From Acidobacteriota bacterium (lineage in GTDB: Bacteria > Acidobacteriota > Vicinamibacteria > Vicinamibacterales > JAKQTR01): a stretch of 64,000 nt of DNA. The notes under the pieces were generated by a model. That model searched no databases. It saw only the letters and a program-made list of their open reading frames with translations, and was not told the DNA's origin. The stretch is from contig JAPKZO010000037.1 of the NCBI GenBank assembly GCA_026393755.1, forward strand, positions 1 to 64,000. The letters are read 5' to 3'. Shown one piece after another: positions 18,266 to 22,253 of this stretch. Numbering within the stretch: position 1 is the first letter of the stretch; each line of letters starts with the position of its first letter. A program made the translations under genes and the position numbers.

Positions 18266-19885
18266 TCAGTTGACCGGCACGGGCTCCTTGGTGTCGAGCT
18301 TCGATGGCGTGAATATCAAGAGGACACCCTTCAGCCCGAGGCTCATGACAATGTTGTAGAAGAACGCCAGGAACGCGAGCAGCAACAGCGATCCGGAGAG
18401 CGCCGCGAGGACCATGTAGACGTTGAACTCGCCGTTCACGTACAGCGAACGTCGCAGCATGCCCTGCAATCCCGCCATGCCCATGAACGCGCCCATGCCG
18501 ACGCCGCCGATCAGGTGGGCCCAGAAATGGAACACGGCGAGCTTGTCGCTGTAGAGTTTCGCGCCGTTGGTCACGATTGGGAAGAGCAGGTAGATGGCCG
18601 AATAGAGGGTCATCGTCAATCCGACGAGCACGGCGACGTGCACGTGCGGACCCACGATCCACTGCGTGTTGTGGAGGATCCGGTTCAATCCCAGGTCCGC
18701 CTGCATGATGCCCGCTGGAACAGCCAGCGCGAAACCAAGCAGACCGCCCAGTAGGAACTTGAGCGGGTGCGTCATCTTCAGCGGCCTGGCGCTCCACAAC
18801 GTGACGAGCGTGATGAAGAAGGCGAGCCCCTGCGTGATCAGTTCGAACGCCGTCACCATCTCGCCGGACACCGTCTTGAGCATCTCGGGCTGCGCCTGGT
18901 CCGACATCAGGTGATGGGACCAGACGGTCCACGACACCACCAGTTCAACGAACAGGGCAGCACGGGCGACATTCTCCATGTAGAGCTTCTTGCCCGTGAT
19001 GAGCGTGGCGAGGAGGTACCACGTGCCCGCCACGAAGATCAGCACGAGGCCGTCCGCAACAAGGTCCAGCCCCCACCAGAACCAGTTCTTGTAGAGCAGC
19101 GCGTCGATCGCGCTGTGTTTCAGATCGTAGCCGAACACGGCGGCGATCATGTACACGAGAATGAGCACGCCGGTGAACAAGATGACGGCGGCGTTGAGCG
19201 CGGTGTCGACGGTTCCGCGCGCGATCGCGGCAACCGGGAGCGAGACCAGATGTTCCGTCTTCTTCCTGGAGAAGAACGCCTGCAGCCCGCTCAGGCCGAG
19301 AGCCGATCCGAGGAGCGCGCCGACGGGCTGCTTGTCCCATCCGTCCGGGGTGTAGGTGATCGTCTTGAAGATGTTGACGACGAAGCACGAGGTCCCGACC
19401 ATGACGAGCGCGATGCCGGTAATGAAGAAGATCCCGCCCCAGAGGCTGAACTGCGTGAAGTCCGCCGGGAGCGGCCAGTACAGCGTGTAGAGCGGCGCGT
19501 AGTGGGTCAGGAAGCCGGCGAACCAGAAGGTGAAGGTCCCGACGGCCAGGAGTCCGCACGTCCAGTTGGCCAGCGGGATGCTCCACAGGGGCTTCTTCAT
19601 CAGGAAGGGCACGAGGAAGAGGAACGCGCCGAATACAATCGAGTAGCTTGACCCGAAGATCCCGACCAGGGGATGGGCCGTCATGATGGCGAAGAACTGC
19701 TCGGTCGACACCGTCGGGACCGGTCCGACCTCGTACAGCCGCATGATCATCCCTTCGACGACCGCGAAGCCGTAGTACACGAGGCCGACGACAATGAAGC
19801 GGAGAATCATCTTCTGCATCGGCGTGAGCGTGGCGGGTTTGAACGACGCCTGCTCGCCGTGGACGAGGGTATGAATGAAGCTCAT
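18266..19885 (-). CDS. heme-copper oxidoreductase subunit I, non-canonical (candidate NO reductase)
   Basis: A 539-residue protein with about 14 membrane helices. Heme ligands are present: H71 in helix II (TAHPLVGIFG) and H414/H416 in helix X (VGPHVHVAVL). Two active-site His remain (H324-H325 in VWSHHLMSDQ). The third, the helix-VI His that ligates CuB in oxidases, is replaced by Asp: WWGLDLVADG has D274 and D278. No helix-VI or helix-VII active-site Tyr is seen. Loss of the Tyr and changes at the CuB site are features of NO-reducing members of the superfamily (known: cNOR; proposed: eNOR, sNOR, gNOR, nNOR). It follows subunit II by 30 bp on the same strand. An oxidase role is less likely but not excluded. 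Confidence 0.8.
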   Translation of the reverse strand: MSFIHTLVHGEQASFKPATLTPMQKMILRFIVVGLVYYGFAVVEGMIMRLYEVGPVPTVSTEQFFAIMTAHPLVGIFGSSYSIVFGAFLFLVPFLMKKPLWSIPLANWTCGLLAVGTFTFWFAGFLTHYAPLYTLYWPLPADFTQFSLWGGIFFITGIALVMVGTSCFVVNIFKTITYTPDGWDKQPVGALLGSALGLSGLQAFFSRKKTEHLVSLPVAAIARGTVDTALNAAVILFTGVLILVYMIAAVFGYDLKHSAIDALLYKNWFWWGLDLVADGLVLIFVAGTWYLLATLITGKKLYMENVARAALFVELVVSWTVWSHHLMSDQAQPEMLKTVSGEMVTAFELITQGLAFFITLVTLWSARPLKMTHPLKFLLGGLLGFALAVPAGIMQADLGLNRILHNTQWIVGPHVHVAVLVGLTMTLYSAIYLLFPIVTNGAKLYSDKLAVFHFWAHLIGGVGMGAFMGMAGLQGMLRRSLYVNGEFNVYMVLAALSGSLLLLAFLAFFYNIVMSLGLKGVLLIFTPSKLDTKEPVPVN

Positions 19886-19915
19886 GATGTGTCTCGCAAA
19901 TTGATGGAGATTCGC

Positions 19916-20482
19916 TCAGTTGGCGCCGTTGTGGTCGCACGACACGACGACGACGTCCTTCAGGATCATGTTGATCCCCGCGGGGCCGGAGTACTCCGTG
20001 GAACGGATGGTGTACACACCGGGCCTATCGAACTGCCACAGGATGTCATTCCGGTGTCCTGGCACCACCTGCATCTGAAACAGCATCGAGTGGTCCTGGC
20101 GGAACAGGCCGAATCCGTACGTCAAGTCGTTCGACGTGACATTGAAGAGCACCTTGTCGTTGCAGGCGATAAGGAGCTTCTCCGATGGCAACTGGAACGC
20201 GTGTGACGCCACATCGATGTTAAACACCTTGTCCGGCGTGATGGTCGCCCGGTGCATGTCCATCGACTTCCACGGAATGGTGTAGTAGGTGATCAGATGC
20301 AGCGAGAAGCCAACGACGACGAGGAAGGCGACGAACGAATAAAAGAGCACAGGCTTCACGCCGCTGCTCTTCCCTTCCTGCGTCACTCGGTTCGCGAACC
20401 AGGCCATCACCAGCGTCATGGCGAGGACATAGAACGTGTAGGCCAGCGTCTGCCCCCAGAGGACGGTCGACGAATCAACCAT
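19916..20482 (-). CDS. heme-copper oxidoreductase subunit II lacking CuA ligands
   Basis: A 188-residue protein with two N-terminal membrane helices (residues 8-30 and 43-65) and a cupredoxin-like periplasmic domain. The classic CuA motif CxExCGxxHxxM is represented by S161-T-E163-Y-S165-G-P-A-G169-I-N-M172: both Cys and the His are gone, while Glu and Met remain. The upstream CuA His is also replaced (SNDLTYGF, Tyr122). So CuA cannot form; quinol, not cytochrome c, may be the donor. ATG 20482 is chosen over 20488 because the GGAG sequence lies 8 nt before it but only 2 nt before the other. Confidence 0.82.
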   Translation of the reverse strand: MVDSSTVLWGQTLAYTFYVLAMTLVMAWFANRVTQEGKSSGVKPVLFYSFVAFLVVVGFSLHLITYYTIPWKSMDMHRATITPDKVFNIDVASHAFQLPSEKLLIACNDKVLFNVTSNDLTYGFGLFRQDHSMLFQMQVVPGHRNDILWQFDRPGVYTIRSTEYSGPAGINMILKDVVVVSCDHNGAN

Positions 20483-20657
20483 GTCCATCTCTCCTTCAGA
20501 AGGTGGGGGCGCGAGTATCATAACTCCGGAGGCGCCCGAGCCGGCGCGAATGCTGCTCATCATGTTGCGGGATGCAGCAATTCCCTGGGACGCTTCCGCG
20601 GCGCCGCTCGTCGACGATGACAGAATCGTGAGTGTATGGGAGCCGGCAACGACGCCG

Positions 20658-22253
20658 ATGGAGATCCCGATGCGTGCAGGTCCTCGTGTCAGTCGCGTCA
20701 GCATCCTCAACGATGTGCTCGGCCCGGTGATGCGCGGGCCGTCGAGCTCACATACCGCCGGCTCGTATCACATTGCGAAACTGGCGGCCGCGCTGCTGGG
20801 CGCGGTGCCAGCGGCGGTCGAATTCGCCTTCGACCCAGACGGGTCGTACGCGCAGGTCTACCGGCAGCAGGGCGTCGACCGGGCACTGGCCGTTGGTGTG
20901 ATGGGCTGGAGCCTGACCGACGATCGGTACTTTGCGGCGCTCGACCTGGCCGCCGCGGGCGGCATCGAGATCCGGTTCGCCGTCCGGCCCCTCGCAACGC
21001 CCGATCACCCGAACACGATCGAGATCGCGATGCGCGGCGCGGACGGGGGGCGGCTGGCCGCGCGCGCCCGCTCGATTGGCGGAGGCGCCATTGAGATCGT
21101 CGAACTGGATGGATGGCCGGTTCGGCTGACCGGAGACGCCCACGAGGTCCTGGTAGACAGCCGACTCGCGGTTGCCGGCGCTGTCGTTGCGACGCTCGTG
21201 GCCGATGGGCAAGGAGCCGGTGATCCCGAGATCCTGGAGCGGGACGGGCGTGCGCTGGTCGTCGCGCACAGGCTCGCCGCGATCGACCAGCACACACGGG
21301 CGGCGCTGGCGGAGCTTGGCAGAGACGTGCGCGTGCGTGAGGCGCCGCCCCTCGCGTTCGTCAAACGGGGCCAGCAGTTGTTCGAGAGCGCGGCCGGAAT
21401 GCTGACGCTGGCTGAGTCGAAGGGCTGGTCGCTTGGTCAGGCCGCGCTGGCCTACGAAACAGCATTGCTGGGGCTTCAAGAACAGGACATCGTCGACGAG
21501 GTCCTCCGCCGATTCGACATCATGCAGGCCGCGGTGCACCTTGGCCTCGACAAGGACGCGCCGCCGATGCAGGTGCTCGCCCCAAGCGCCCGCGCGATCT
21601 TCGACGCCGACGCCGCCGGGCGGTTGCCTCTTGGCGGCCTGCACACGCGGGCGGCGGCGCGGGCCATGGCCGTGATGCACGTCAACGGCGCGATGGGCGT
21701 CGTCTGCGCCGCGCCAACCGGAGGATCAGCGGGAGCGGTTCCGGGCGTCGTGGTGACCCTGGCAGAGGAGCGCGGGCTATCGAGGGATCGGGTTGCGATG
21801 GCGCTGCTGGCCGCTTCGGCCATCGGTGTCATCCTCGCGACGCGTGCCACGTTCGCCGCGGAAGTCGCCGGCTGCCAGGTGGAGATTGGCGCGGCCGGCG
21901 CCATGGCGGCCGCCGCGGTGGTCGAGGCGGCGGGCGGCACGGCAGCCCAGGCAGCCAACGCTGCGGCGATCGCGTTTCAGAATTCCATGGGATCGGTCTG
22001 CGATCTGGTGGGCGGGATAGTGGAAATTCCCTGTCACACGCGCAACGCGGTGGCCGCCTCCAGCGCCTTTGTCTGCGCGGACCTGGTCGTAGGCGGCTAC
22101 GTGAATCCCATTCCCCTCGACGACACCATCGATGCGGTGTATTCGGTGGGGCAGATGATGCCGAGCGAACTGCGATGCACCGCGAAGGGCGGCCTGGCGG
22201 TCACGCCTTCGGCCTTGCGACTTGTCAGCACCGCCCGCGCCGTGCAACAGTAG
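20658..22253 (+). CDS. sdaA: L-serine dehydratase (fused beta-alpha, iron-sulphur type)
   Basis: A 531-residue single-chain L-serine ammonia-lyase: L-serine to pyruvate plus ammonia. The N-terminal half is the beta domain (VLGPVMRGPSSSHTAGSYHI) and an ACT-less linker leads to the alpha domain with GGLHTRAAARAM, CAAPTGGSAGAVPGVVV, and GSVCDLVGGIVEIPCHTRNA, which includes the Cys residues expected to bind the 4Fe-4S cluster. The ATG at 20658 fits the start of the beta domain; M at 20670 is an alternative. It is divergent from the heme-copper subunit II gene with a 175-bp gap between starts. Confidence 0.88.
   Translation: MEIPMRAGPRVSRVSILNDVLGPVMRGPSSSHTAGSYHIAKLAAALLGAVPAAVEFAFDPDGSYAQVYRQQGVDRALAVGVMGWSLTDDRYFAALDLAAAGGIEIRFAVRPLATPDHPNTIEIAMRGADGGRLAARARSIGGGAIEIVELDGWPVRLTGDAHEVLVDSRLAVAGAVVATLVADGQGAGDPEILERDGRALVVAHRLAAIDQHTRAALAELGRDVRVREAPPLAFVKRGQQLFESAAGMLTLAESKGWSLGQAALAYETALLGLQEQDIVDEVLRRFDIMQAAVHLGLDKDAPPMQVLAPSARAIFDADAAGRLPLGGLHTRAAARAMAVMHVNGAMGVVCAAPTGGSAGAVPGVVVTLAEERGLSRDRVAMALLAASAIGVILATRATFAAEVAGCQVEIGAAGAMAAAAVVEAAGGTAAQAANAAAIAFQNSMGSVCDLVGGIVEIPCHTRNAVAASSAFVCADLVVGGYVNPIPLDDTIDAVYSVGQMMPSELRCTAKGGLAVTPSALRLVSTARAVQQ

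Follow-up and report, generated by a model that had tools for sequence, protein, structure and literature searches.

A two-subunit heme-copper enzyme with aspartate at the helix VI metal-ligand position, probably a quinol-oxidizing nitric oxide reductase

The window, the whole stretch of 64,000 nucleotides of Acidobacteriota DNA that was analyzed, contains a pair of adjacent genes which, at a probability of roughly 0.7, encode a two-subunit, quinol-oxidizing NO reductase, a heme-copper enzyme that most likely belongs to gNOR, a family proposed earlier. An earlier note on this DNA had described a quinol-driven NO reductase or related novel terminal enzyme, liable to be misannotated as cytochrome c oxidase. 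The first part of that claim is the best-supported reading, through the loss of CuA, the absence of an active-site Tyr, a NOR-type Glu, a clade of its own, and Rrf2, hemerythrin and qNOR genes near related copies, while “novel” is weakened because the traits match those of gNOR, which has already been proposed. The two genes and their diagnostic positions are as follows.

18266 to 19885, minus strand: subunit I, heme-copper catalytic subunit, 539 amino acids; intact open reading frame (Pfam COX1, E=3e-52)
19673 to 19675, minus strand: His71, low-spin heme ligand in helix II; invariant
19064 to 19066, minus strand: Asp274, at the position of the CuB/FeB His in helix VI, 50 residues before the His-His pair; invariant in 80/80
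19052 to 19054, minus strand: Asp278, at the catalytic Tyr position of A and B oxidases, also that of the cNOR/qNOR Glu (motif position E in qNOR, Q in eNOR, N in sNOR); invariant in 80/80
18911 to 18916, minus strand: His324-His325, metal ligands in helix VII; invariant
18842 to 18844, minus strand: Glu348 in helix VIII, aligned to the conserved qNOR Glu of S-A-L-E; invariant in 80/80
18638 to 18646, minus strand: His414 and His416, heme ligands in helix X; invariant
19916 to 20482, minus strand: subunit II, 188 amino acids, a cupredoxin without CuA and with two predicted N-terminal helices; open reading frame with ATG at 20482 and stop ending at 19916 (CoxB, E=4.5e-8)
19967 to 20002, minus strand: former CuA loop S161-T-E-Y-S165-G-P-A-G169-I-N-M172; S161, S165 and G169 invariant in 74/74

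The Pfam COX1 match spans the length of subunit I, and NCBIfam oxidase models score the protein far under their cut-offs (CtaD, 86 bits against 671). Its predicted model (pLDDT 74, pTM 0.78) is of the heme-copper subunit I type, with the fold of cytochrome oxidase subunit I (Foldseek probability 1.00; VIA Z of about 30); A-type oxidases dominate both lists of matches, which were rejected as a guide to subfamily. His71, His324/His325, His414 and His416 are present in the 539-residue reading frame where the earlier note had placed them, and the two-heme ligand set, as judged from the sequence, is intact.

Helix VI of subunit I reads WFWWGLDLVADG and offers two aspartates, D274 and D278, as counterparts of the missing metal-ligand His. 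MAFFT alone slid this helix, placing D278 onto the His in the non-NOR families and D274 onto it in qNOR. Counted from the ligand, the His-His pair of helix VII lies 49 residues on in A, B and eNOR enzymes, 49-50 in sNOR, 50 in the C type and 51 in qNOR; in the window protein it lies 50 residues on from D274 and 46 from D278. A Trp lies three or four residues before the helix VI ligand in all groups except sNOR, as it does before D274, and the helix matches that of qNOR without gaps (WWxxHLxxEG against WWGLDLxADG). Because the spacing, the Trp and the gap-free match fit D274, this residue was assigned to the His position and D278, at +4, to the position held elsewhere by Tyr, Glu, Gln or Asn, and the converse assignment of D278 from the MAFFT columns was rejected on the first two of these grounds. 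Read in this way, the helix VI metal-ligand position and the Tyr position are both Asp. The earlier note had correctly named D274 and had overlooked the second Asp; its statement that no active-site Tyr is found also stands, D278 occupying the A/B position and S318 the cbb3 position in helix VII.

A further carboxylate, absent from that account, lies in helix VIII, where the segment TAFE348L aligns with SALE of qNOR in an alignment that includes A, B, C, eNOR and sNOR sequences. None of these five groups has Glu there; among the sequences compared it occurs otherwise only in qNOR, and we take its position to be that of Glu280 in Pseudomonas cNOR. At the K-channel positions, A355 replaces the A-type Lys, A355 and I358 the B-type Thr residues, and V285 (+11) the B-type helix VI Tyr; by alignment and sequence, subunit I lacks the Lys/Thr/Tyr signature of the K proton channel found in A- and B-type enzymes.

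Subunit II matches CoxB weakly and reads RSTEYSGPAGINM where CuA requires CxExCGxxHxxM, with Y122 at the position of the upstream CuA His. The replacement of the CuA ligands by S161, S165 and G169, already claimed from the window alone, was borne out across the family: RSTEYSG..G is invariant in 74 of 74 subunit II proteins, and the CuA ligands are gone from all of these as well as from relatives only 53% identical. The best fold matches of the AlphaFold2 model (pLDDT 86) are ba3 CuA domains, to which two N-terminal helices are added. Because CuA, the known point of electron entry from cytochrome c, is lost and the two genes have no cytochrome c gene as a partner, quinol is the likely donor. 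The longest reading frame of the divergent serine dehydratase gene (window 20481-22253, plus strand) begins within the first codon of subunit II; its true start probably lies further downstream.

The gene pair belongs to a real family. D274 and D278 are invariant in 77 of 77 orthologues, and they, E348 and the heme ligands are invariant in all 80 sequences of a wider set with a lowest identity of 53%, in which 166 positions never vary, E342 among them. Since D274/D278 and the S161/S165/G169 changes are invariant (77/77 and 74/74) and are kept in 53%-identical relatives, they are not due to chance. The two-gene order is kept in 73 loci. In the bacterium's own phylum, copies at 79-93% identity occur in several genomes, some of which have two, and the search of that phylum found nothing between these copies and ordinary oxidases at 26-32%. 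G034 and G051 each carry two subunit I copies on separate contigs. A scan of named genomes yielded 318 relatives, the best 80 of which come mainly from Bacteroidota and Ignavibacteria MAGs, with further records from Acidobacteria, Gemmatimonadetes, Spirochaetes and Deltaproteobacteria. Of 296 genomes drawn from the phylum of one Bacteroidota locus (L036), about 3% carry the family. The 53%-identical group, found in three genomes from the phylum of locus L105, shares the D..D, HH and Glu positions and a subunit II without CuA; in the sampled phyla, nothing turned up between this group and ordinary oxidases. The viral contigs searched held no relative, and the plasmids searched gave no match above 31% identity or spanning most of the protein. 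In all three genomes of the 53%-identical group the pair is adjoined by a divergent protein of 220-255 amino acids with no Pfam match (for example L196:7769-8431, minus strand, with equivalents in L197 and L198).

A phylogeny was built with references for the A, B and C types, qNOR, eNOR (H..Q, CuA intact) and sNOR (H..N; both of those examined for CuA retain it). With support of 100/100 the family stands as a separate clade, inside no reference group, and the A, B and C O2-reductase groups are each whole without it. In this phylogeny, of the kind suggested by the earlier note, it lies outside every sampled O2-reductase clade. The join below the clade is weak (87/61) and the family stem is long; the AU test kept forced groupings with B plus eNOR (p 0.094), qNOR (p 0.134) and the A type (p 0.142) and singled out no one of them. 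The best PDB sequence matches of both subunits are B-type (ba3), the family from which gNOR, sNOR and nNOR have been published as descending (PMC11388526) and from which the window family may also descend.

Several of the sampled families resemble the window enzyme in part. Like eNOR, it would be a NO reductase with a cupredoxin subunit II that is misannotated as an oxidase, but the eNOR references (L183-L185) keep the helix VI His, Gln at the Tyr site and CuA, and membership was rejected on D278 against Gln (H..Q in the references; Q also in PMC8756737). With sNOR it shares the cupredoxin subunit II and the adjoining Rrf2 gene seen in Ruegeria; the sNOR references (L149, L189, L190) differ in their helix VI His, in Asn at the Tyr site (H..N, the ground for rejecting membership) and, in L189 and L190, in an intact CuA. 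The earlier view of a changed helix VI ligand as a general mark of eNOR and sNOR is contradicted by these sequences, all of which keep the His. The likeness to cNOR and qNOR lies in Glu348, which corresponds to the qNOR helix VIII Glu, in D278 at the Glu211 position and in the helix VI pattern WWxx(H/D)Lxx(E/D)G; the window enzyme differs in its His-to-Asp change, in a subunit II that is a cupredoxin rather than a cytochrome c, and in lacking the fused qNOR N-domain. Membership in cNOR/qNOR, defined by three His and a helix VI Glu with a cytochrome c or fused quinol subunit, was rejected on D274, D278, the cupredoxin and the separate clade. In the PDB sequence comparison both subunits come closest to B-type (ba3) enzymes, which also give the best fold for subunit II, but the window enzyme lacks their His, Tyr, CuA and K-channel pattern and lies outside the B clade; membership in the A, B or C O2 reductases was rejected, with no Tyr at D278 or S318 and a clade of its own at 100/100. 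On a Thermus thermophilus plasmid, an eNOR-like enzyme annotated as a cbb3 oxidase (L185:2339-4741) reads GHFKG in helix X at the expected second His and is followed by Rrf2 and DUF542 genes.

The closest correspondence is with gNOR, in which an Asp may likewise replace a metal-site His. Described as a two-subunit proposed NO reductase, norGH, from Sulfurimonas, Persephonella and Methylomirabilis (PMC8756737; PMC8906906), gNOR lacks a proton channel and carries Asp where the active-site Tyr would be (PMC8756737 Table A4), is quinone-oxidizing and non-electrogenic (PMC8906906), and is proposed and uncharacterized, with no biochemistry (PMC11388526). The Asp at the Tyr position is shared with the window family (D278 invariant here; D in gNOR, PMC8756737 Table A4), and both are two-subunit enzymes with a cupredoxin subunit II and a likely quinol donor; gNOR is described as having no proton channel, and the window family lacks the A- and B-type K-channel residues, though it may have a channel of another kind. 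Carriers of the window family are Bacteroidota, Ignavibacteria, Acidobacteriota and others, while gNOR references come from the genera above and from Sulfurovum. Compared by published description only, the family is likely a member of gNOR, and there are good odds that it is either gNOR or its sister. A NO reductase that belongs instead to nNOR or to a family yet to be described, and that acquired the Asp at its Tyr site convergently, is a doubtful alternative: the long stem, the several joins kept by the AU test and the empty interval between 53% identity and ordinary oxidases in the sampled phyla would suit it, but it shares with gNOR as published the Asp in place of Tyr and, probably, quinone oxidation and the lack of a proton channel. 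Only tentatively could we claim a heme-copper family not yet described and separate from gNOR, in which a heme and a 2-His-1-carboxylate iron flanked by D278 and E348 would recur across Bacteroidota, Ignavibacteria, Acidobacteriota and others, in some as the sole heme-copper enzyme.

A low-activity quinol O2 reductase, scavenging O2 in a mostly anaerobic bacterium, is improbable. Although the heme ligands and fold are of the oxidase type and the genome has no other heme-copper enzyme, Tyr is missing from both known positions, the helix VI His is replaced, the K-channel pattern is absent, Glu348 is of the NOR type, and the bacterium's own cytochrome bd can serve O2. Very unlikely is a degenerate, non-catalytic relative such as a redox or gas sensor; the lost CuA, the changed metal ligand and the want of adjoining partner genes in the window could be so explained, but not readily the 166 invariant positions across 80 sequences, the retention of all heme ligands, the two-gene order in 73 loci and the recurrence in unrelated phyla. 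The least probable is other NO chemistry, such as dismutation to N2 and O2, for which a carboxylate-rich site unlike that of characterized cNOR leaves room, since sequence does not reveal the substrate, but no feature here points to NO dismutases, and those known to us are qNOR-like single chains.

Two His and one carboxylate are a standard ligand set for non-heme iron, and cNOR and qNOR hold iron at the FeB site. Because the set suits iron and these enzymes use iron there, D274, H324 and H325 of the proposed quinol-oxidizing NO reductase may form a 2-His-1-carboxylate site holding FeB rather than copper, with D278 and E348 perhaps serving as second-sphere or ligand carboxylates, as Glu211 and Glu280 do in cNOR. 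Electrons would pass from menaquinol directly to the low-spin heme and on to heme/FeB, where 2 NO + 2 H+ + 2 e- would give N2O + H2O. No cytoplasmic proton path is visible, so turnover is likely non-electrogenic, and protons would be taken from the periplasmic side.

In the window, the pair is flanked by unrelated genes, which encode an ABC exporter and an outer-membrane channel to one side and, to the other, the serine dehydratase and a PAS-type histidine kinase. Neither an Rrf2 gene nor any other NO gene adjoins the pair there, which counts against the NO-reductase reading, and no FNR-type box was seen by eye in the upstream sequence inspected. Among the 77 loci, 41 have an Rrf2 gene directly upstream, in the order Rrf2, subunit II, subunit I on the same strand. 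These Rrf2 proteins have an invariant C-x6-C-x5-C arrangement (the third Cys in 40 of 41), pass the Rrf2 superfamily cut-off only, fall under every specific NCBIfam cut-off and score nearer to SUF/IscR/RirA than to NsrR, which also counts against NO reduction. Their identification as certain NsrR was rejected on the specific cut-offs, and since the superfamily cut-off alone is passed they are putative NO sensors only. Rrf2 genes also adjoin the Ruegeria sNOR and the Thermus eNOR-like enzyme, the Ruegeria one matching NsrR best. At L034 and L089, two Rrf2 genes surround the pair.

Ignavibacteria loci carry, upstream of the pair, genes for a Crp/Fnr regulator, a DUF6448 protein, a small protein and a mini-protein resembling COX1. 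A 154-residue membrane protein encoded just upstream of subunit II in this group (L040:2357-2815, L064:8864-9328, plus strand) matches the C-terminal part of COX1 only (profile 310-404) and has a conserved helix X-like SAHTHI motif; in G477, fragments resembling COX1 are present close to nosZ as well. A conserved HCD..DGP motif is shared by the DUF6448 proteins that lie beside the pair in about 10 loci (including L147:8740-9441, minus strand, L084 and L090), and in several Bacteroidales (L029, L044, L054 and neighbors) two small YeeE/YedE-like membrane proteins (clusters c7 and c14) follow subunit I.

Among the Acidobacteriota relatives, G043 has a hemerythrin gene directly downstream of subunit I, and the pair is accompanied by a qNOR gene at a distance of about 4 kb in G001 and about 9 kb in G043. 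Other denitrification genes, a check that the earlier note had suggested, were looked for in the window bacterium's own genome, which has no NirK, NosZ or NrfA over cut-off and no convincing NirS; this counts against NO reduction. A cytochrome d1 match at C40:104562 was rejected as NirS, being partial and scoring 33 bits, and no internal source of NO was found in this genome. Across 47 carrier genomes, NosZ over cut-off occurs in 5, again counting against the NO-reductase reading, and full-length NrfA in 16.

Subunit I is the sole COX1-family protein in its genome, which is rated 100% complete and encodes one cytochrome bd subunit I; 9 of the 47 carriers, this genome included, encode no heme-copper enzyme other than that of the family. 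Its standing as sole heme-copper enzyme beside cytochrome bd, without NirK, NrfA, NosZ or a convincing NirS, suggests a role in NO detoxification, in which the enzyme would clear external NO while cytochrome bd probably takes O2.

If the proposed quinol-oxidizing NO reductase is real, the N2O-producing bacteria would be extended by hundreds of mostly uncultured genomes that are now likely annotated as oxidase carriers. The family also offers a clear test of the minimum number of histidines for a heme-copper active site. Because gNOR-type enzymes have no biochemistry (PMC11388526), the motifs WWGLDLxADG, SGEMVTAFE and RSTEYSGPxG, together with the candidate regulators, provide handles by which such enzymes may be found and tested.
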